Part shown: positions 16,393 to 34,227 of the stretch, in pieces
How positions within the stretch are numbered: position 1 is the first letter of the stretch
Layout of the letters: each line of letters opens with the position of its first letter
Source: a virus
Length of the DNA stretch: 36,685 bases
Strand: one strand, 5' to 3'
IMG/VR virus record: IMGVR_UViG_3300046455_000452
Location: 1-36,685 of that record
Position numbers and translations under genes: made by a program
Notes under the pieces: model-generated
The model's input: only the letters and a program-made list of their open reading frames with translations
Told to the model about the DNA's origin: nothing
The model's database searches: none

Positions 16393-16614
16393 TCACTTCT
16401 CCTTCTTGTGTCCAGCGGCGCAGTACTTGGGCTTGGCGCCCTTGCCTGACCACTCCTTCTTGGGCTCCGAGCACCCGTCGTGCCCGCAGACATCCGCCGA
16501 CTCGGCCGCCACCGCAACGTGAAGGGCGCGGCGGTTCGGGCCGGGCTCCTCGCAGCCGAGCCAGTGGGTGGCCTGCCCGTTCTCGGCCGGACGGCCGCAG
16601 GTCTCGCACGTCAT
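16393..16614 (-). CDS. Small Cys/His-rich (zinc-ribbon-like) protein
   Basis: The 73-residue protein starts at ATG 16614, overlapping the portal stop by 4 bases. It has CETCGRPAENGQATHWLGC, then CGHDGC and YCAAGH, giving several potential metal ligands. The C-terminus is Lys-rich (KPKYCAAGHKKEK). It could bind DNA or a virion protein through a zinc site. No specific family is recognised. Confidence 0.6.
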   Translation of the reverse strand: MTCETCGRPAENGQATHWLGCEEPGPNRRALHVAVAAESADVCGHDGCSEPKKEWSGKGAKPKYCAAGHKKEK

Positions 16615-18434
16615 GCCGGAACGCTCCTCTTGATGGATGCGGAGGCGCGGGGCGCGCCGCCGCTCGTGAGCCCGGCGAGCAGCGACATGACGTCAGGCTT
16701 GCCGCCGGGCCCCATCTGGGCCTGACCGGGGGCCGTACCGCCCGGGGCGCCCGTGGTCGGGTTGATGCCGAAGGGCACCCCAGGGCCGCCCTCACCCGGC
16801 CCTGGGGTGCCGGGAGTCCCGTCCGCGGACATGGCGGGCGACGGCTGGGGCTCCGGCTTGAAGGCCGCCAAGACGGCCTCGTGCATCGGCATCTTTTCGC
16901 GCAGGTCGATCAGGGACGCGGCCTTGGTCAGCAGCTCTGTGGGGTCCATGCCCTGCTGGGCCATGATCCCGATCGAGGACAGCAGGGCGAAGATGCCCTG
17001 CTTGAGCGCGTCCACGGTCTGCTCCTTGTCGACCTCGGCCTGAAGGCTGGCCACGTCGACATCCATCGGCAGCTGGCGCTGGACGAAGTCGCGGGAGACG
17101 AGCTGATCTCCGCGGAGCTGGAGCAGGAAGATCAACGCTTGGTTGGGGTTCATCCCCGAGGCGAAGCCGTACGTGACGCTCACGCGGTAGTTGCCGCGGA
17201 TGTCCTTGCCCGGGGTGTACGTCTCCTCGAAGGGCGTGCCGTTGATCGTGCCGCTGATCGTCTTCTTGGCGTCCGGCCAGAACTTCTCGTCCATCTCGAA
17301 GGCCAGCTCAAGGGCGCGCTCCAGCGCGTCCCCGATCATCAGCTGGCCGGTGGCCACCTGGATGTCGTAGCCCCCGTTGAGGGCGTCCACGCCGCGGCCG
17401 GTGATGATCGAGGCCTGAACGTCGCCAGTGGCGCTGGCCGGCGTGCGCGTGCCCTTCATGACCTCGGACGCCAGTAGCTGATCCTGCTGCCAGGCCGCCT
17501 GCGGCATGTCCGTGCCCACGCGCCGGATCTTCTCCGGCGAGTTGGTACGAATGACCGCATCGTCACCGAAGGGGATCTTCTGCACGTCGGTCGGGATGGC
17601 GAGCGGCGCGCGTACGGTCTGCTGCGTGGCCTGAAGGCCCAGCATCGCCATGCGGTTACGGGCCAGAGACGGCCAGACCACGTCATCGAGCTGGCCGCGG
17701 TCCTGGTCGTCCCAGGTGGGCTTCCGGGCGATGGTCACCGGAACCTTGCCGAGGCGATTCTCCGTCTCCATCAGCACGAGGTTCTGACGCTCGGGCATGT
17801 AGAGGACGTACTGGGCCTTGTCGCAGAACTTCACCAGCTCAAGTTCCGTGTCGCCGGTCGTCTGCTGGCCAAAGGGTCGGTCCTTGCCCAGGATCGCTTC
17901 CTGGAACTCCGGGAACTTCGCGGCCAGCTGGCGCGCGGGCTCACGCCAGACCTTCGTGTACGAGCGGACCCGGCCCGAGAGGTCGTACTCCACGTACGAC
18001 TTCATCGGATTGTCGAGCCTCAGGCGGGGGCGGCCCTCCGTGAAATCGGGCTCCACGACGATCGGCATGGAGCCGTATGTCACGTACCAGTCGCACCCCG
18101 TCGGCATCTGCTTCTTGAGGCCGGAGTCGATCACGTACGAGTACGCGACCTTCGATTTCTTGGCCACGAACTTCTTCTGCCGCTCGCTGGAGACCACGCC
18201 CGGAGCGCAGTTGATCGAGGGCAGCGGCGCCAGGGTCTCGGCCATCTGGCGCGCGGAGGTATCCAGGAGGTTGGCCGTGATCGGACGCGGCCAGGCGTCC
18301 GGCATGCTGCCCGGCGCGATGTTGTCGATCTTCTGCGCGCGGGCATCGAAGATGGTCTGATGCCGCGCGTCACGCTCCTGGGCATCGCGGCGCAGCGCCT
18401 CAACGCGGATCGATATCTGCCGGATGTCCGCCAT
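16611..18434 (-). CDS. Portal protein
   Basis: The 607-residue protein starts at ATG 18434, chosen because AGGAGG lies 5 bases upstream. A GTG at 18440 is too close to it. It starts with a charged helix (ADIRQISIRVEALRRDA). The YSYVIDSGLKKQMPTGCDW region, a wing-like beta domain (PRLRLDNPMKSYVEYDLSG) and the SEVMKGTRTPASATGDVQASIITGRG type sequences are portal-like, and a Pro/Gly-rich C-terminal tail follows residue ~520. Twelve copies would form the DNA entry channel. It is next to the endolysin and close to the terminase, as expected. Confidence 0.82.
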   Translation of the reverse strand: MADIRQISIRVEALRRDAQERDARHQTIFDARAQKIDNIAPGSMPDAWPRPITANLLDTSARQMAETLAPLPSINCAPGVVSSERQKKFVAKKSKVAYSYVIDSGLKKQMPTGCDWYVTYGSMPIVVEPDFTEGRPRLRLDNPMKSYVEYDLSGRVRSYTKVWREPARQLAAKFPEFQEAILGKDRPFGQQTTGDTELELVKFCDKAQYVLYMPERQNLVLMETENRLGKVPVTIARKPTWDDQDRGQLDDVVWPSLARNRMAMLGLQATQQTVRAPLAIPTDVQKIPFGDDAVIRTNSPEKIRRVGTDMPQAAWQQDQLLASEVMKGTRTPASATGDVQASIITGRGVDALNGGYDIQVATGQLMIGDALERALELAFEMDEKFWPDAKKTISGTINGTPFEETYTPGKDIRGNYRVSVTYGFASGMNPNQALIFLLQLRGDQLVSRDFVQRQLPMDVDVASLQAEVDKEQTVDALKQGIFALLSSIGIMAQQGMDPTELLTKAASLIDLREKMPMHEAVLAAFKPEPQPSPAMSADGTPGTPGPGEGGPGVPFGINPTTGAPGGTAPGQAQMGPGGKPDVMSLLAGLTSGGAPRASASIKRSVPA

Positions 18435-18471
18435 GGCCACCTCCTGTCGGGAAAATGTACGTCCTGTACAG

Positions 18472-19215
18472 CTACTTCTGCGCCCGCAAAGCCTTGACGG
18501 CCGCTTCCAGCGCGGCCACGCGCTGCTCCAGCGTCAGCTTCACCTGGACGACCACGCCGCCCCACTTGCCGGCCGGGAGCGCCAGGCACGCGGCCACGTC
18601 CTTGCGCAGCTTGGGCATCGGCACGCCCTTGGGGTCCGACTTCCAGTCCGACCACTCCAGGTGCCCGATGATCGACTTGCCGCCGGTGCCCCAGTTGTCG
18701 CCCTTCGCGCGGTGCGCGCGGATCAGAGCGGCCTGGACCTTGACCATGGCCACGTACTGCGCGGCCGGCCAGGCCTCCTTGCCGTCGCCGGAGTTGACGC
18801 ACTCCCAGCCGTAGAAGTGGCTGTTGCCGTCCACGGCGCCGGCGCTGCCCTCGTGCTCGTGCGTGGCCGGCGGGTAGTCGCCGTAGTTCTCCGCCACCAC
18901 CGCGGCCAGGACCTTCGGGTCCCCGCCACCGGCATGGTTCGCCCGGCCGTTGCCGACCAGATAGACGTCACCCTTCTTGCCGATGAGCCCGGTGCACAGC
19001 GGCCCCGGCAGGTTGGCGTCCCCGGACCAGACGTAACCGAGGATCTGCGCCTCGGTGGAGTACGGCCCGGTGTGGTGCACGACGGAGCCGTTCACCGGCC
19101 CCCAGCCGCCGTGGCCCTCACGGTTGTGCGTACGCCAGCCCGCGTGCTCGTGCACAGTGACGCCCTCGGCCCTGAGGGCCGCCAGAAGCTGGTCTGCTGT
19201 CAGAGGGGCTGCCAT
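18472..19215 (-). CDS. Endolysin: N-acetylmuramoyl-L-alanine amidase (Amidase_2)
   Basis: The 247-residue protein starts at ATG 19215. Upstream extension is shadow sequence of the next gene. Zinc ligands of the amidase fold are visible: His47 or His48 (SVVHHTG), NHAG near residue 105, FYGWECVNSGDG, and GHLEWSDWKSDPKG, which holds the second His ligand and the conserved Lys/Asp area. The C-terminus is a short coiled coil (LEQRVAALEAAVKAL), perhaps for oligomerisation. It cuts the bond between muramic acid and L-Ala at lysis. A holin is not adjacent. Candidate small membrane proteins lie at 25.2 and 33.3 kb. Confidence 0.9.
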   Translation of the reverse strand: MAAPLTADQLLAALRAEGVTVHEHAGWRTHNREGHGGWGPVNGSVVHHTGPYSTEAQILGYVWSGDANLPGPLCTGLIGKKGDVYLVGNGRANHAGGGDPKVLAAVVAENYGDYPPATHEHEGSAGAVDGNSHFYGWECVNSGDGKEAWPAAQYVAMVKVQAALIRAHRAKGDNWGTGGKSIIGHLEWSDWKSDPKGVPMPKLRKDVAACLALPAGKWGGVVVQVKLTLEQRVAALEAAVKALRAQK

Positions 19216-19484
19216 CAGACGGTCCCCCAGTCCTCGCCAAGGATGTCCGTTTGGGATGCGAGCCACGGCACGAACGAGCCGTCGGCGGTCCGCATCATGA
19301 GGTAGGGCAGGAACCGGCACACAGTGCCCTGCTCCAGGCCGGTGGCCACCGCGGTGTTCTCGTTGATGGGGATACCGCCCGGGTAGCCCTTCTGAAGCAC
19401 CACGTACATGCCCTTGCCGTTCCAGCCCCCGCGGCTGAGCCGCGAACCCGCCCTGAGCAGGTCCAGCGCGTCACCGAAGTCCAT
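19215..19484 (-). CDS. tad2: DUF2829 / Tad2-like anti-Thoeris protein
   Basis: The 89-residue protein starts at ATG 19484, with GGAGAG 5 bases upstream. The longer frame has no such site. The whole sequence follows DUF2829: MDFGDALDLLRAG, SRGGWNGKGMYVVL, FLPYLMMRTADGSFVPW and LASQTDILGEDW. DUF2829 proteins include Tad2, which binds and sequesters the cyclic ADP-ribose signal of Thoeris defence. Tad2 relatives also bind other immune nucleotides. Its presence among the late genes, between terminase and endolysin, is unusual for an anti-defence gene. DUF2829 membership is seen directly. Anti-defence activity in this phage is inferred. Confidence 0.88.
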   Translation of the reverse strand: MDFGDALDLLRAGSRLSRGGWNGKGMYVVLQKGYPGGIPINENTAVATGLEQGTVCRFLPYLMMRTADGSFVPWLASQTDILGEDWGTV

Positions 19485-19491
19485 GTCTCTC

Positions 19492-21429
19492 CTACCAGTC
19501 CATGGCGCCGTTCCAGGCGCCCGCGCCCTGCTGCTGCAAGGCGAAATCAATGTCGACGACCATCTGTCCGGCCTGGTCGCGCTCTGAGCTGAACTCCGAG
19601 GTCTGCATGTGCCAGCCGGAGAAGTCGGACGTCATCAGCTCCCGCGCGCGGATCTCCGCGAACCAGAAGGCCATGACCGTGTCGGTCAGGCCCTTGGTCT
19701 CGGGGAACCAGCTGCATAGCTGCTCGATGAAGGCGCGGATGCCCTCGCTCTGCGACTGCGACGGCAGATGGATCATGTTCTGGCCGGACTCCCAGCCGGA
19801 GAACAAGGTGGCCATGGAGGCCACGCCGAAGTCCGAGTCCCACTTGTTCGTGTTCGTGTGGTGCGGGCTGATCAGGCAACCGCGGGCCGCGAGGAAGGAC
19901 TTGATCAGCTGGTCCTGCACGATGGACGCCTGATAGGCGTTCTTCTCCACCCGCCACTCAGAGATGCCGTAGCGCTCGGTCAGGCGCTCCATCTCGGAGC
20001 GCATCTCGTGCGGCGGCATACCGCGGCGGTTGACGACGTCCAGGACCCACCGCACGCCGGTGCGGCGGTCCACGCCCACCACCACCATGGCCGTGCAGCC
20101 CGCTGCGGCCGGGTCCATCCCGGCCACGACCGTGAGGCCGTCCATGCCGTGGCGCCGGTGCTGGGGCTGCCCGTCGAACATCCGGCCCGGGTAGCGGGAC
20201 CGGTCGATGCAGCCCTGCACGTCGGCCTGCTTGAAGATCGCGTCATCCGCGACCTGGTCCTGCATGTAGACCATCGACCAGTTCCGCGGCGTCATCTTGC
20301 GCCGCTTCCTGGCCAGGGCCTCCCCGTGCCACATCGGCCAGAGGCCGTCCTTCGGCCAGCCCTGGTCCTGGGCCGTCTTACGGGCCTGCACGGTGACAGG
20401 CGGCCGGTTGGTGACCGGCCAGAGCGTCTCCCAGTCCTTCGGGTCGTCAGCGAAGTTGAGGACCGCCGGCTGGGTCAGGTACGTCCAGGGCGAGCTGCCC
20501 TCGCTGTAGTACTGCGGCTTCAGGATCTCCGAGTACAGGTCCACGGTGTTCATACGCGTGCCGATGAGCAGCATCCGCCCGCCGACGTCGGCGACGCGGG
20601 AGCCCACGATGTTCTGAATCCAGTTGATCTGGTTCTCGAAGGCCTGGTGGTTCGTGTTGTCCACGCAGTCGTCCATGATGACCAGGTCGGTACGCGTGCC
20701 GTAGATCTGGCCGCCGATGCCGACGGCTTCGACGGTGTACTCCTTCTCGCCGGAGTCCGCTCCGGCCACACGGATCTGCGTGCTCGACCAGGTGGAGGCG
20801 CCTTCGGCGAAGCCTCCCGGCGGGCCGAAGGCCTGCTGGAGGTCGATGTACGTCTCGGACTCGGCCAGGCGCTGCTTGATCGAGAAGAGGAACTTGGCCG
20901 CCATGGACTGGGTCTTGGACACGAGCAGGATGCGGATGTTCGGGTCCTGCACGATGCGCCAGACCACGTAGTTCACGGTGAGCGTCGTGGACTTCGCGTG
21001 CTCCGGGGGCGTGTTGACGACGATCTGGTCCTCGTCGCCGCGGATGTACCGTTGCGCCGGGTGCAGGCCGCGGGGCTCGCGGCCCTCCAGCAGGTCATAC
21101 CACTGCAAGTGGTGCGTGAAGAGCCTGGTCCCCAGGTACCGGTCACAGAACTCCGGGAAGTCGGGGACCTGCTCCTTGGCCCCCTTGGCCTTCTCAAGGT
21201 TGCTCTGCAACGCCCGGTCGATCAGGTCCCGGAAGTCCGGGTCCCTCTTGCGGTAGTAGTCGTACGTCGAGCGGACGATGCCGGCCTGACGGCAGCCCTC
21301 CTCGATCGTGTGCCCCATGCGCACGGTCGCGAGGATGATGTTGCGGCGGTCCTTGGAGGACGCCTGCGAGATGCGGCGGTCACGGGGCTTGGCCAGCGAC
21401 CCATCCTTGTCGACGCGGAGTCTGGCCAT
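19492..21429 (-). CDS. terL: Large terminase subunit
   Basis: The 645-residue protein starts at ATG 21429. Residues 40-62 look like a small-terminase-type helix-turn-helix (TIEEGCRQAGIVRSTYDYY). The ATPase follows: Walker A variant PPEHAKST at 141-148, Walker B LVIMDD at 249-254, and an arginine/coupling region with LLIGTRMN. The nuclease half has AGMDPAAAG, a TNKWDSDFG segment and the C-terminal DTVMAFWFAE. The enzyme pumps DNA into the procapsid and cuts concatemers. No separate small subunit is recognised. The HTH at the N-terminus may supply DNA recognition, or the 91-residue gene upstream may act as the small subunit. Confidence 0.93.
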   Translation of the reverse strand: MARLRVDKDGSLAKPRDRRISQASSKDRRNIILATVRMGHTIEEGCRQAGIVRSTYDYYRKRDPDFRDLIDRALQSNLEKAKGAKEQVPDFPEFCDRYLGTRLFTHHLQWYDLLEGREPRGLHPAQRYIRGDEDQIVVNTPPEHAKSTTLTVNYVVWRIVQDPNIRILLVSKTQSMAAKFLFSIKQRLAESETYIDLQQAFGPPGGFAEGASTWSSTQIRVAGADSGEKEYTVEAVGIGGQIYGTRTDLVIMDDCVDNTNHQAFENQINWIQNIVGSRVADVGGRMLLIGTRMNTVDLYSEILKPQYYSEGSSPWTYLTQPAVLNFADDPKDWETLWPVTNRPPVTVQARKTAQDQGWPKDGLWPMWHGEALARKRRKMTPRNWSMVYMQDQVADDAIFKQADVQGCIDRSRYPGRMFDGQPQHRRHGMDGLTVVAGMDPAAAGCTAMVVVGVDRRTGVRWVLDVVNRRGMPPHEMRSEMERLTERYGISEWRVEKNAYQASIVQDQLIKSFLAARGCLISPHHTNTNKWDSDFGVASMATLFSGWESGQNMIHLPSQSQSEGIRAFIEQLCSWFPETKGLTDTVMAFWFAEIRARELMTSDFSGWHMQTSEFSSERDQAGQMVVDIDFALQQQGAGAWNGAMDW

Positions 21430-21704: not shown

Positions 21705-21760
21705 GTCCTGCTCCGCCCGCCCAGGGCCCCCTGGGGGCCAGCCAGCGGGTGAGGGTAAGC

Positions 21761-21784
21761 GTGCTAGCACATTTCTGCTAGTGG
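21761..21784. promoter_or_regulatory. CTAG palindromic element, copy B
   Basis: The sequence GTGCTAG, ten bases (CACATTTCTG), then CTAGTGG has the same spacing and a T-rich centre as copy A at 5754-5777. It is preceded by GTAAGC, against GTACGC in copy A. The left half is itself palindromic (GTGCTAGCAC). It lies 57 bases upstream of ATG 21704 on the minus strand. It could also serve the divergent plus-strand gene at 21849. A regulatory role is inferred from conservation and placement. Confidence 0.6.
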
Positions 21785-21796
21785 TCCCGGACAATA

Positions 21797-21827: not shown

Positions 21828-21848
21828 ATGCCGACATTCGGAGATGAG

Positions 21849-22103
21849 ATGAAGGCGCGGTACCAGACTACTTGCAAGCTATGTGCAATAAGGATCCAGC
21901 CGCGGGACGACATCGCTCCGCTTCTGCGGGGGTGGGTGCATATCGCATGCAAATCCCGCGAGATAGCCCGACGCACGGAGGGCCACGCGGTCCTCAAAGG
22001 CGTGACCTTCCTGCCGACCGTATACACCCCAGAACGGCAGATCGTCGGCGGGAACAGGCGCATCAAGCGACGGCGGGCCAACCGGGGCCGGAAGCGGCGC
22101 TGA
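21849..22103 (+). CDS. Small zinc-finger-like basic protein, 84 aa
   Basis: It starts at ATG 21849 with CGGAG 6 bases upstream. An in-frame ATG at 21828 lies on the terminator arm and has no ribosome site. The N-terminal domain has Cys9, Cys12, His31 and Cys34 (CKLC...WVHIAC), a plausible zinc site. The C-terminus is very basic (RRIKRRRANRGRKRR), suiting nucleic-acid binding. It is the first gene of the right arm and lies immediately before the hairpin array. A role in handling that structured DNA or RNA is possible but is only inferred from position. Confidence 0.75.
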   Translation: MKARYQTTCKLCAIRIQPRDDIAPLLRGWVHIACKSREIARRTEGHAVLKGVTFLPTVYTPERQIVGGNRRIKRRRANRGRKRR

Positions 22104-22284
22104 TGACGTTCCCGCAGGTCACGAGCGGTCAGGTCCCGGAAATCCGGAGCGGCTTTCGAGCGCTGATAGACTGCTGATAATTCGTGTGCGCTACGCGCAG
22201 CTTGGCGTGGCCGAGGCCCCCGAGGCCACGCCAGCATAGAGTGGCCAAAGGCCACAGCATGAGCCGCCCTCAGGCGGCCGAACG

Positions 22285-22313
22285 AAAAGCCCGGTCCCCC
22301 AGACCGGGCTTTT
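22285..22313. terminator. Bidirectional terminator inside the hairpin array
   Basis: AAAAGCCCGGTC, loop CCCCA, GACCGGGCTTTT makes a perfect 12-bp stem ending in a T run on both strands. It is the only hairpin of the array with a U-tract. On the plus strand it could terminate the transcript of the small zinc-finger gene at 21849. Confidence 0.75.
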
Positions 22314-22403
22314 GCATGAGGGCCTTGAAAGGCCCAGCTGAGCCGCCCTCAGCGGCTCCGCTCTGGGGGGTTGCATACGGAGTGCTGGTTGGAGACCAGC
22401 ACT

Positions 22404-22501
22404 CGGGGGCTGCGTCGGCTTTAACACCGGGGGGTCATACCCGGTGGAAAGCCGCAGGTCAGACACGGTCTGAGGCCCAGACAGGGCCTCCGCAGCCCCC
22501 G
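22404..22501. ncRNA. Multi-branched structure within the hairpin array
   Basis: An outer 11-bp stem (22404-22414 with 22491-22501, CGGGGGCTGCG/CGCAGCCCCCG) encloses three hairpins: 22416-22422/22448-22454 with an inner 22425-22431/22440-22446 stem, 22459-22464/22468-22473, and 22474-22478/22484-22488. This gives a closed four-way junction of about 98 nt, unlike the simple stem-loops on either side. It was found by pairing by eye. Confidence 0.65.
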
Positions 22502-22902
22502 AGCTGGCGAGGGGGACCAGCCCCCCGCACCTCCAGGTGCGGAGCTCGGTCCCAGCATGGGTGTGCACCCCTCGGTGCACACAGCATGAGGACACAGCGG
22601 TGCACCACCACAGTGGTGCACACCATGGGTGAGCGTGCGTCAGCACGCTCACGGCTGTGCGCTGGAGCGCACGCACGCGTACGCATGCACGGCCATCACC
22701 ATGGCCGTGAGCATGGTGTGCCCACCATAGTGGGCACTGCTGTGCGTGGGGCAGGCGGAGCCTGCCTCCTGACCCTTCGCCCAGCGAAGCGCCGACAGCC
22801 CCCTCCGGGGGCGTGCGTCGGAAGGGGGGAGCTGCCGGCCTGACGGCCGGCTGCCGAGCGGCCTGACGGCCGCTCCGCTGTGCGCACGCGCATGAATGCG
22901 CA

Positions 22903-28022: not shown

Positions 28023-28102
28023 CCCCTCGTAGCTCAGCGGTAGAGCAGCCCCCAGCGCGCCTTGGGGACGGTTGGTCGCCGGTTCAAATCCGGTCGGGGG
28101 GA
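28023..28102 (+). tRNA. tRNA-like element 2, abnormal anticodon arm
   Basis: The acceptor is CCCCTCG with CGGGGGG (one T-G pair), followed by T8-A9. A perfect D arm (GCTC-AGCGGTA-GAGC) and a T arm (GCCGG-TTCAAAT-CCGGT) complete most of the cloverleaf. The anticodon arm is CCCCA with TGGGG around an 8-nt loop GCGCGCCT, or 4 bp around 11 nt. No 7-nt loop and no U33 can be drawn, and the variable region is ~10 nt. No CCA is encoded. It might be called a tRNA by automated search, but decoding is doubtful. Confidence 0.55.
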
Positions 28103-28153
28103 CGTTCGCGGCCGACGGGCCGTGACTGGTGCACCGGGCGATATCCCGGTGTC

Positions 28154-28222
28154 GGGCGGATAACTCAACTGAGCAGAGACCCCCGCTAGGGGGTGATGCG
28201 GGTTCGAATCCCGCTCCGTCTA
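28154..28222 (+). tRNA. tRNA-like element 3, short anticodon arm
   Basis: The acceptor is GGGCGGA with TCCGTCT (7 pairs, two G-T), followed by T8-A9. The T arm is perfect (GCGGG-TTCGAAT-CCCGC). The D arm is weak (ACTC with GAG and a loop lacking the usual GG). The anticodon position is a 16-nt hairpin, ACCCCC-GCTA-GGGGGT, one base shorter than a canonical arm and with a 4- or 6-nt loop and no U33. Length is about 69 nt. It lies 52 bases after element 2. It is probably a degenerate tRNA or a tRNA mimic. Confidence 0.5.
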
Positions 28223-30945: not shown

Positions 30946-31077
30946 ATGCAAGAGCAGGAGGCCTCCAGCGAGGAGACCATCACGGCCATATGGACCGTGA
31001 CCGACCCCAACGACCTTGTGTACGCAGAGGTGTTGGAAATCCTGTTTGGTCCCGACAGCGACGATATGGCGGCATAA
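30946..31077 (+). CDS. Short acidic protein before the integrase, 43 aa
   Basis: It starts at ATG 30946 with AGGAG 5 bases upstream. It is very acidic (MQEQEASSEETITAIWTV; FGPDSDDMAA). It is followed directly by the terminator at 31093 and then the integrase. Recombination directionality factors of serine integrases are small and variable, so this is a candidate, but nothing in the sequence proves it. Confidence 0.55.
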   Translation: MQEQEASSEETITAIWTVTDPNDLVYAEVLEILFGPDSDDMAA

Positions 31078-31092
31078 TCGCGCCAGAAGAGC

Positions 31093-31125
31093 GACCCCGG
31101 GAAGCGGTGCATGCCTCCCGGGGTC
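31093..31125 (+). terminator. Terminator upstream of integrase
   Basis: GACCCCGGGA and TCCCGGGGTC form a perfect 10-bp stem with a 13-base loop, followed by TCGTC. It separates the HTH unit from the integrase and lies only 24 bases from its start. Integrase may therefore be transcribed from a promoter downstream of or within this hairpin, or by read-through. Confidence 0.65.
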
Positions 31126-31148
31126 TCGTCAGTCGCGAAGGGACCGAC

Positions 31149-32921
31149 ATGTCAGAGACTCTCACGATCGCCACAGGCCTTGTGGAGCGGGTGGTGAACC
31201 CGGGCCAGATCCGGGCCGTGGCCTACCTCCGGGTATCCACGGAGGAGCAGGCGAAGGGCTACGGCATCGCCTACACCGCCAAGAAGGTCTTGAAGTACTT
31301 CGAGAAGAAGGAGTACGCCCACGTCGGCACCTTCGCCGACGAAGGTCTCAGCGGCAGCCTGGAGGCGCACGAGCGCCCCGGCCTGAAGCGCCTGATGACC
31401 CTGGCGCGGCAGACCCCGCGCCCCTTCGATCTCGTGGGCGTCAACGAGGGCCGAGTCATCGGCCGCACCGGACGCGCCTTCTGGCGCTGGGTGTGGGAGC
31501 TGGAAGACCTCGGCGTCTACGTCGCTGTCGCCAAGAAGGACTACGACAACTCCACGCCGTCCGGGCGTGGCCAGATGCGCAAGGATGCCGACTACGCCGA
31601 GGAAGAGCGCGAGCTGATCCGCGAGCGCACCAACGGCGGCCGGCAGGAGAAGGCCGAAGAGGGCGGCTGGCCGGGAGGCCGGACCCCCTACGGCTGGATG
31701 ATCGAGAACAAGGGCCAGAAGGGCGCCTCGAAGGCCGCCAGGGACCCCCATGAGTGGGGCGTCCTGCACCGCATGCTGGAGCTGGCGGTGGTCCACCACC
31801 GCAATGCCGAAGGCATCGCCGCGACCCTCAACGCAGAGGGCACGCTCACCCGCGAGGGCAAGCGCTGGAGCAACAAGAACGTCCTCAACAAGCTCAAGAG
31901 CGAAGCCGTCCAGCAAGCGCAGGTGACCTTCCGCAAGGAGTCCCGCTCCCTGAAGGACCGGGACGGCAACCTCCTGTACGGCGCCACCGTGACCATCCCC
32001 CTCGTCCCCGCCTTCACGGCGGTGGAGCTGGCGAGCCTCAACGCGGCGCTGACGCAGTTCTCCGTGGTCCGCAAGAAGGACGGCACGCCGTCCTATCCGC
32101 TCTCCAAGCGGATCGTGGGGGAGTGCGGGAGGCACTACACGGGCTTCGTGCGGCCCCGCGGGGGCCGCGCCTACCGCTGCGCCGGGAAGCAGCAGGCCTA
32201 CGCGGGAGCGGGCATCTGCTCGTGCTCCCAGGTCGGCGCTGACGACCTGGAGCAGGCCGCCTGGACCAAGATCTGTCAGCTCCTGGGAGATGCCGAGCAG
32301 CTTCGGCGGCTCGCCGAAGAGCGCGCCGGTCTGGCCGCGGCGAACAAGGTCAACCACGCTGAGCGCCTGGAGAAGCTCGATCAGCAGATCGAGGAGCAGA
32401 CGGACGCCATCGACGCCACGATGGCTGTAGCGGCCCGCCAGGCCGCCAAGCGGGGCCTGAAGGGCCCCGCGGCCGAAGAAGCGATCGAGCGGGTGGTGAG
32501 CCCGCTGAACCAGGAGCTGGCCGAGCTGGAGAAGCAGCGGGCCGAGGTCGCCGACTGGCAGGCGGAGACCGAGCGGGCGGAGCAGAGGGCGAGGGACCTC
32601 CAGGAGCTGGCCAGGGCGGCCAGCAAGCGCCTGGACAACCTCTCGGAGCCCAAGCGGGCCCGGTTGATCAGCCTGCTGGACGTGCAGGTCACGCTGACCT
32701 CAGCGGTACCGCGGCCCTGCCGGGGCCGGAAGGCAGGACTACCGTCCTTCGAGGTCACGGGCCGGATCGAACCCCGGCTCGTGACGGAACACTTGGCGGA
32801 ACGCTCCCGAGGAGAAACGTGGCCTCATGTGCCATCTGGGGTCATCCAATTCCGTATGCGGGTGGCGGCCTCGCTGACCTCGGAAGATGCCCGAAGCCTT
32901 GTGGACCGTAGAGCGGCTTAG
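31149..32921 (+). CDS. int: Large serine recombinase / integrase
   Basis: The 590-residue protein starts at ATG 31149; in-frame sequence upstream is terminator. The N-terminal catalytic domain contains VAYLRVSTEEQ with nucleophile Ser30 and Arg28. It then has GTFADEGLSGS, GVNEGRVIGRTGRAFW and the helix E linker (YAEEERELIRERTNGG). The recombinase domain is GGRTPYGWMI, with GIAATLNAEG. A zinc ribbon is visible as CGRHYTG...YRCAGK...CSCSQV. A coiled coil (AERLEKLDQQIEEQTDAI) closes the protein. It performs attP-attB integration and, with an RDF, excision. The attP should be near the gene but I could not define it. Confidence 0.97.
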   Translation: MSETLTIATGLVERVVNPGQIRAVAYLRVSTEEQAKGYGIAYTAKKVLKYFEKKEYAHVGTFADEGLSGSLEAHERPGLKRLMTLARQTPRPFDLVGVNEGRVIGRTGRAFWRWVWELEDLGVYVAVAKKDYDNSTPSGRGQMRKDADYAEEERELIRERTNGGRQEKAEEGGWPGGRTPYGWMIENKGQKGASKAARDPHEWGVLHRMLELAVVHHRNAEGIAATLNAEGTLTREGKRWSNKNVLNKLKSEAVQQAQVTFRKESRSLKDRDGNLLYGATVTIPLVPAFTAVELASLNAALTQFSVVRKKDGTPSYPLSKRIVGECGRHYTGFVRPRGGRAYRCAGKQQAYAGAGICSCSQVGADDLEQAAWTKICQLLGDAEQLRRLAEERAGLAAANKVNHAERLEKLDQQIEEQTDAIDATMAVAARQAAKRGLKGPAAEEAIERVVSPLNQELAELEKQRAEVADWQAETERAEQRARDLQELARAASKRLDNLSEPKRARLISLLDVQVTLTSAVPRPCRGRKAGLPSFEVTGRIEPRLVTEHLAERSRGETWPHVPSGVIQFRMRVAASLTSEDARSLVDRRAA

Positions 32922-33312: not shown

Positions 33313-33374
33313 TCATCCTGGCGGCCCTCGTGGTCGCCTTCGTCATGAATGGGGTGCCGTACTGGTGGAACTGA
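33285..33374 (+). CDS. Small membrane peptide, 29 aa
   Basis: GTG 33285 follows GAGGGGG by 7-8 bases. The product has one hydrophobic span (KLIILAALVVAFVMNGVPYWW) and no charged tail. It overlaps the next small membrane protein by 10 bases. A holin, antiholin or signal-anchor peptide is possible. Confidence 0.45.
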   Translation: MGLPRSHKLIILAALVVAFVMNGVPYWWN

Positions 33375-33502
33375 TCAGGCGCTGGTGCGCAGCGCTCAAG
33401 AAGAACCGGGCCCGACTGGGCTGGGGTATCGCGGAAGGGCTCATCGGGGCCGCTATCGGCCTCCTGGCCGCCACCCTGTGGGGCCACACGGTGGGCTGGT
33501 GA
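33365..33502 (+). CDS. Small membrane protein with basic N-terminus, 45 aa
   Basis: The likely start is GTG 33365 (VELIRRWCAALKKNRARLG). A glycine-rich transmembrane span follows (IAEGLIGAAIGLLAATLWG). A basic N-terminus and a single small-residue span fit holin-like proteins, and the neighbouring 29-residue peptide could be its partner. The WhiB-like gene starts 2 bases after its stop. No ribosome site is strong, which favours coupling. Confidence 0.5.
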   Translation: MELIRRWCAALKKNRARLGWGIAEGLIGAAIGLLAATLWGHTVGW

Positions 33503-33504
33503 CG

Positions 33505-34227
33505 ATGCTCTACGACCCCGAGCGCCGATGGCTGGCGCGGAGCATCTGCCGCTGGGAGGACCGTCACCTCTTCTTCGCCGACGGCGCGTCCGCCGGCCGC
33601 GTCTCGCAGAGCGTGCAGAAGGCCTGGGACCAGGCCAAAGAGATCTGCGCCATGTGCCCGGTCCAGGTCGAGTGCAAACGCGACACGCTGGGTGAGGACT
33701 TCGGCGTCTGGGGCGGACTGGACCAGAACCAGCGCGCCGCCATACGGCGGGCCCTGCCCAGGGCCGCCAGGAAGTGGCCCGAGGGCCGTCGCCTCGCCTG
33801 GGGCAAGGCCGTGCAGGCCCTGCGTGACGGTGAGGTGAGCTGGAGGGACATCACCCTCCAGACCGGTCTGCCGCACAACGTGGCCGAGGAGCTGGCCACG
33901 CAGTGGCGTGTCCACCTGATCGAGACCGAGAACCAGCCCAAGGTCATCGACCTGCCCTTGCCCGAGGAGAGGACCAGGGGGCCGGAGTTCCCGACGAAGC
34001 CCGGCAACCGTCACGCCTGGGTGCGGCACAACGGCCGCATCTCGGACGCGATCTACCGCGGCGAGACCCCGTCAGGGGTCTGGATCTTCGTGACCGTCTA
34101 CTCCGGTCACGGCCACGTCAACAAGTGGGTGCTGCGCAGGGACGTGCAGGTCTACCACCCTCAGCCCGTGATCATCATGTCCAAGCGACGGGAGGAAGCG
34201 GATGCGGTCACCGCACCAGCTGCCTGA
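33505..34227 (+). CDS. WhiB-family transcription regulator with C-terminal extension
   Basis: It has 240 residues from ATG 33505. The four iron-sulfur cysteines are Cys15, Cys48, Cys51 and Cys57 (CAMCPVQVEC), and the GVWGG loop is at 67-71, the WhiB hallmark. After residue 85 there is an extension of about 150 residues, with an HTH-like helix pair (YGEVSWRDITLQTGLPHNVAEEL region) and a beta domain (GVWIFVTVYSGHGHVNKWVL). Phage WhiB proteins can alter host gene expression through sigma-factor binding. The long extension is not usual for small WhiB proteins and may give extra DNA binding. Confidence 0.88.
   Translation: MLYDPERRWLARSICRWEDRHLFFADGASAGRVSQSVQKAWDQAKEICAMCPVQVECKRDTLGEDFGVWGGLDQNQRAAIRRALPRAARKWPEGRRLAWGKAVQALRDGEVSWRDITLQTGLPHNVAEELATQWRVHLIETENQPKVIDLPLPEERTRGPEFPTKPGNRHAWVRHNGRISDAIYRGETPSGVWIFVTVYSGHGHVNKWVLRRDVQVYHPQPVIIMSKRREEADAVTAPAA

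Follow-up and report, generated by a model that had tools for sequence, protein, structure and literature searches.

A dense array of DNA-like hairpins at a predicted genome end of temperate Streptomyces phages related to Beephvirinae

The sequence analyzed, which is 36,685 bases long and is referred to in its entirety as the window, was an IMG/VR virus record, and its source is a temperate phage. Features of the window are listed in Table 1. The late genes run leftward and the early genes rightward, and a hairpin array occupies the interval between them, next to the gene for the terminase large subunit (TerL). A conserved inverted repeat resembling CTAGCAGAAATGTGCTAGCA, which is found ~30 to 350 nt upstream of TerL in most relatives, is probably the late promoter or its operator. 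Two tRNA genes were detected with Rfam, and one tRNA gene of the window was called by ARAGORN with an odd two-base anticodon. The gene for a small basic CxxC..HxxC protein, which the original prediction had pointed out as a zinc-finger neighbor of the array, proved to be an inconsistent partner. It was oriented opposite to TerL in 12 relatives, was codirectional with TerL in L004, L005, and L073, and was missing from other relatives, as if a cassette had been flipped or inserted repeatedly.

Table 1. Features of the window discussed in the text (coordinates are positions in the 36,685-base record)
Feature	Position	Strand	Remarks
Portal	16611-18440	-	
Endolysin	18472-19320	-	
Terminase large subunit (TerL)	19492-21429	-	phrog_38, 2.8e-72
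CTAGCAGAAATGTGCTAGCA-like inverted repeat	~21760-21785		Conserved
Small basic CxxC..HxxC protein	21828-22103	+	
Hairpin array	22187-22902	.	20 short perfect hairpins, with further imperfect and long-range stems
TerL-side half of array	22187-22397	-	Loops more varied; GNA bias absent
Imperfect hairpin	22203-22233		
Hairpin with A4/T4 flanks	22285-22313		Bidirectional-terminator-like; in TerL-side half; sole one of its kind
Hairpin GAGTGCTGGT-CTCCA-ACCAGCACTC	22380-22404	-	Bridges predicted cut
Predicted right end/terminase cut	22397-22398	-	GAGTGCT/GGTCTCC (cut at the slash), 23 nt after TTAA; by homology with Beephvirinae boundaries
Early-gene-side half of array	22398-22902	-	Would be right end of linear genome
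Long-range stem, 3' arm	22401-22414	-	Covariation
Core motif TATGACCCCCCGGTGTTAA (TerL-sense)	22421-22439	-	Single copy in window
Long-range stem, 5' arm	22491-22504	-	Covariation
GTCCCCCTC	22509-22517	-	GTCC invariant in subfamily B; tentative left boundary, giving a terminal repeat of ~120 nt
tRNA gene (Rfam)	28023-28103		
tRNA gene (Rfam)	28154-28222		
Serine integrase	30990-32921	+	
WhiB-like	33349-34227	+	

Perfect inverted repeats (arms of at least 6 nt, loops of 3 to 8 nt) covered 46.9% of the array, compared with 3.8% ± 2.5% (maximum, 10.8%) in 200 dinucleotide shuffles; coverage of the whole window was 9.2%. The dense array described in the original prediction is thus real. A nonoverlapping list contained 20 perfect hairpins, one imperfect hairpin, and a long-range stem of 13 to 14 bp. 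The statement that almost every base is paired was too strong, as about half of the bases lie in perfect local stems, with more recruited by long-range pairs. Loops of 4 nt were found in half of the 20 perfect hairpins. Stem sequences within the array were mostly unlike one another, as had been noted. Folding of the array was far more stable than that of dinucleotide-shuffled controls on both strands, with z-scores of -17.1 (plus strand) and -10.6 (minus strand) for RNA and of -18.0 and -10.5, respectively, for DNA, and 0 of 20 shuffles reached the folding energy of the array on either strand as RNA or DNA. Nucleotide searches with the array against phages and plasmids returned no match. In the Rfam search, tRNAs alone exceeded the threshold and nothing did so over the array, where subthreshold matches to LAGLIDADG-2 and PreQ1-III were judged to be due to chance.

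A scan of viral contigs with TerL yielded 64 relatives. Arrays were present upstream of TerL in all 35 loci that combined a TerL identity of 62% or more with an upstream sequence of 1.2 kb or longer, in each case between TerL and the early genes and ~0.1 to 2.2 kb upstream of TerL. Four loci with enough sequence had no array, and their TerL sequences were 46 to 54% identical. Across the family, arrays comprised ~10 to 30 hairpins and extended up to ~1 kb. Four arrays were found in prophages of Streptomyces genomes (L072, S. himalayensis; L073, S. composti; L074, Streptomyces sp. t39; L075, Streptomyces sp. MP131-18), which indicates that the hosts are Streptomyces and that the array is not an artifact of metagenome assembly. 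The sequence CATG was 4.7 times more frequent than expected in the spacers between hairpins (104 occurrences in all arrays).

The arrays enclose a conserved core, TGACCCssGGkTGTTAA, from which the copy in the window differs by one mismatch. The core was single copy in 9 of 10 phage genomes searched, and the reversed control was found 0 times in phage records. An exact scan of 2.9 million viral contigs recovered 16 stretches carrying the core, 14 of them within arrays; the other two were in L060 (TerL 46% identical, array absent) and in L086 (unexplained). In array phages, GGTCTCC starts 21 to 24 nt past the TTAA of the core, mostly at 23 nt, which is also the spacing in the window. Subfamilies E and F keep the core, with the boundary motif RGTCYCC absent or altered.

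The nearest phages with known ends were the Streptomyces phages of the Beephvirinae (Manuelvirus, Flowerpowervirus, and Immanueltrevirus), whose TerL is ~50% identical. Linear records of six Beephvirinae from these three genera contained direct terminal repeats of 253 to 276 nt, and the right repeat boundary in all six lay exactly 23 nt past GACCCsGGGTTGTTAA and was followed by AGTCCC. As in array phages, the site is located between TerL and the early genes, and the core is followed after 23 nt by RGTCYC. Because the core and the 23-nt spacing match the ends of Beephvirinae, the array most likely surrounds a terminase cut site near 22397/22398, and the packaging or genome-end site that had been listed among the possible roles is strongly supported by this homology in sequence. 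The left boundary of the Beephvirinae repeats starts with GTCC, like the invariant GTCC at 22517. Unlike the array phages, with ~10 to 30 hairpins around the core, the Beephvirinae are hairpin poor, with coverages of 0 to 5% in the terminal repeats and 0 to 13% when the flanks are included. The core therefore also occurs without an array, in the Beephvirinae and L060, so that it is probably older than the array, as judged from these sequences, and the hairpins are not required for cutting as such. Array phages include prophages, unlike Abafar (Beephvirinae), which is virulent (PMC11536984).

Several further sequence features were observed near these sites. Tandem 5-nt repeats (such as GATGG x3, CTGGA x2, and CTGGG x2) directly ahead of the predicted cut in L024, L026, L031, L034, L035, L037, L038, L046, and L080 occupy the place of the long-range stem sequence of subfamily B. 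Among contig ends of metagenomic TerL loci within 5.5 kb upstream of TerL, 20 of 37 fell in the first 1.5 kb, and contigs often stopped in or beside the array, as if hairpins or genome ends interrupted assembly. Contig ends were rejected as proof of physical ends; L085 stops 2 nt beyond the predicted cut, L088, L091, and others do not, and the ends are scattered. In the noncoding right end of Beephvirinae, upstream of early genes, a sequence resembling TTGAGTTCTCAA was found near L067:3838-3850 and L071:3053-3065. A motif of this kind is known from actinobacterial rRNA leaders, and the sequence may be a promoter or an element for antitermination that was taken over from the host.

In family counts, in which, as in the other counts given here, the sequences are related and thus not fully independent, GNA triloops were favored on the TerL-sense strand (53, versus 17 for the reverse complement), and 48 of the 53 were closed by C-G. 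As a hairpin in single-stranded DNA, C(GNA)G is exceptionally stable. The bias was absent outside arrays (46 versus 55) and had the same sign across all six subfamilies. Family-wide, 61 GNA and 11 TNC loops were counted on the early-gene side of the predicted cut (P = 1.5e-9), compared with 5 and 7 on the TerL side, and loops of 3 to 4 nt accounted for 76% on the early-gene side versus 54% on the TerL side. The array of the window itself holds few GNA loops, and the bias is a family-level result. If the genome ends at the core, the GNA-favored strand would carry the 3' end at the right genome end, and the other side is the unbiased one.

The confinement of GNA loops to one strand and one side of the core would also suit a replication origin, in which the hairpins would serve on one template strand as sites of single-strand initiation, comparable to plasmid single-strand origins and phage minus-strand origins, with the terminase site being no more than a neighbor. 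The position of the array at the divergent center of the genome fits such an origin, as does a DnaA-box-like inverted pair, TTATCCACA-N6-TGTGGATAA, between the array and TerL in L007, L012, L030, and L037. This pair is situated 0.1 to 0.4 kb upstream of TerL, and single copies were found in L006 and L016. DnaA-like boxes are, however, absent from the window and most relatives and were rejected as a general feature of arrays; the TerL side carries hairpins too, and the core matches a genome end and not any known origin. From the earlier suggestion of an origin using folded single strands, the folded strands are retained, as DNA depleted in wobble pairs and bearing GNA loops, and the origin itself is regarded as unlikely.

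Stems in the arrays remained paired as their sequences changed. Pairwise alignments of arrays showed 583 double changes in stem pairs, of which 468 still gave Watson-Crick pairs, and stems were substituted nearly as fast as spacers (0.172 versus 0.203 per site). The long-range stem, with 14 pairs, was paired in 99.6% of cells in an alignment of 19 members of one subfamily, with double changes at 7 of the pairs; inner pairs switched type without a visible G-U intermediate, and G-U was found in three cells, all at the outermost pair. The covariation score of this stem and the hairpin after it was 0.334, compared with 0.099 after shuffling (0 of 500) and at most 0.051 after sliding. The other hairpins vary too much to align, and consensus folding of the alignment accordingly yielded the long-range stem and hairpins close to the cut but no others. 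Uncompensated changes in the arms, which the original prediction had named as evidence against selected pairing, were thus not the rule, and the pairing survived. Selection of the array hairpins for pairing, and not for sequence, forms part of the best explanation.

Perfect Watson-Crick stems with almost no intermediates, together with the hairpin turnover seen between close relatives, could also be a mutational by-product, in which hairpins are made and perfected over and over by fold-back synthesis or template switching when genome ends break or replicate, and pairing is maintained through correction of imperfect palindromes rather than selection; stable loops on the 3' strand are expected from fold-back priming. 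Nevertheless, all members keep the array in the same location, the core is conserved, hairpins are retained at given positions while their sequences change, and the Beephvirinae have the same type of end without hairpins, all of which make a by-product quite improbable.

Pairing in the arrays looks like that of DNA. In local folds of 21 arrays, 5.2% of the pairs on one strand and 4.2% on the other were G-U, versus 11.8% in shuffles, a depletion that a need for pairing on both RNA strands could likewise produce; for eight tRNAs used as a control, the values were 12.7% (sense) and 5.3% (antisense). Among 221 tetraloops, 7 were GNRA and 3 were UNCG. A structured noncoding RNA or a bidirectional terminator or insulator transcribed across the divergent center, to which the decoy or structural RNA and the transcription insulator of the original prediction belong, would be consistent with the very stable folding of both strands, with the A4/T4-flanked hairpin, and with G-U depletion through pairing on both RNA strands, but is very unlikely, as neither strand tolerates G-U at the level of tRNAs, GNRA and UNCG loops are nearly absent, no Rfam match in the array exceeded the threshold, and nearly all hairpins are without T runs. 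When the array was read by sequence, a T run followed a hairpin only at the A4/T4-flanked one, a measure that leaves room for terminators without U tracts, and read-through of the array is not obvious because it lies upstream of both divergent operons. GOLLD and ROOL are large phage-associated structured RNAs with several hundred nucleotides of dense structure; unlike these, the array has no Rfam match, depleted wobble pairs, almost no GNRA loops, and unconserved stem sequences. A large virion protein acting as an N4-like RNA polymerase that reads hairpin promoters was rejected, with Pfam support absent.

With a probability of roughly 60%, we interpret the array as the packaging and terminal-repeat (genome-end) region of temperate Streptomyces phages related to Beephvirinae, in which folded DNA hairpins protect or prime the ends. 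The core, followed by 23 nt and RGTCYCC, would mark the terminase cut on replicated DNA; the terminase would read the core as sequence and cut 23 nt further, the core being placed within a covarying long-range stem and between many pairing-selected hairpins. The array would become single stranded during end formation, whether through strand displacement, resection, or duplication of the terminal repeat, and the TerL-sense strand, 3'-ending at the right genome end, would then fold into stable mini-hairpins, which most likely would protect the end or prime or position end synthesis, comparable to the palindromes of Streptomyces telomeres.

In T7-type concatemer processing, the terminal repeat at the concatemer junction is duplicated during packaging, much as proposed for the array, and hairpin ends have been reported as intermediates. 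T7 is not known to carry tens of hairpins arrayed at its ends. A phi29-type protein-primed genome was rejected, since family B DNA polymerase (PF00136) was found in 0 of 10 phage records and the control genomes were positive. By analogy, the likeness in form between the array and the telomeres of Streptomyces, the host genus of the array phages, appears close at the family level. These telomeres (archetypal and five other classes) likewise consist of packed palindromes with unrelated stems and loops of 3 to 4 nt (PMC8743542, PMC4513846). Their loops are usually 3 or 4 nt long and most often GAA, GGA, or GTA, with stems that are little alike (PMC8743542), and nuclease-resistant GCA loops closed by G-A sheared pairing have been reported for them (PMC4513846). 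Packed hairpins, loops of 3 to 4 nt, and favored GNA were all found over the array family, if sparsely for GNA in the window, and the telomere-like loop signature is limited to one side of the cut, though hairpins flank both. Streptomyces telomere folds span ~150 bp at protein-capped linear ends, the archetypal ones using Tap/Tpg, unlike the array, which reaches ~1 kb, is internal in the prophage, occurs in a phage that encodes a terminase, and matched nothing in the plasmid collection at the sequence level. Genes for Tap/Tpg or Tac/Tpc, which would go with a covalent terminal protein, were not noticed among the ORFs scanned. Terminal repeats of phages and telomere palindromes of their hosts are both established kinds of element; for a terminase site within tens of covarying DNA hairpins, no account was found in the open-access papers searched.

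These results predict precisely where the genome ends in a large group of uncultured Streptomyces phages. They also suggest that genome maturation in tailed phages involves folded single-stranded DNA in which pairing, rather than sequence, is under selection. How repeats are duplicated in direct-terminal-repeat phages is a long-standing question, on which the array system offers a handle. More tentatively, terminase-packaged, tailed double-stranded DNA phages might possess telomere-like ends, with ~0.5 kb at the terminus forming a string of single-stranded DNA mini-hairpins, with C-GNA-G loops on the 3' strand, that would help to replicate or protect the end, perhaps via the host telomere machinery. 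If true, this would tie phage ends to the hairpin-rich telomeres of the host, in which the rationale for GNA loops and the patching of ends are only partly understood.
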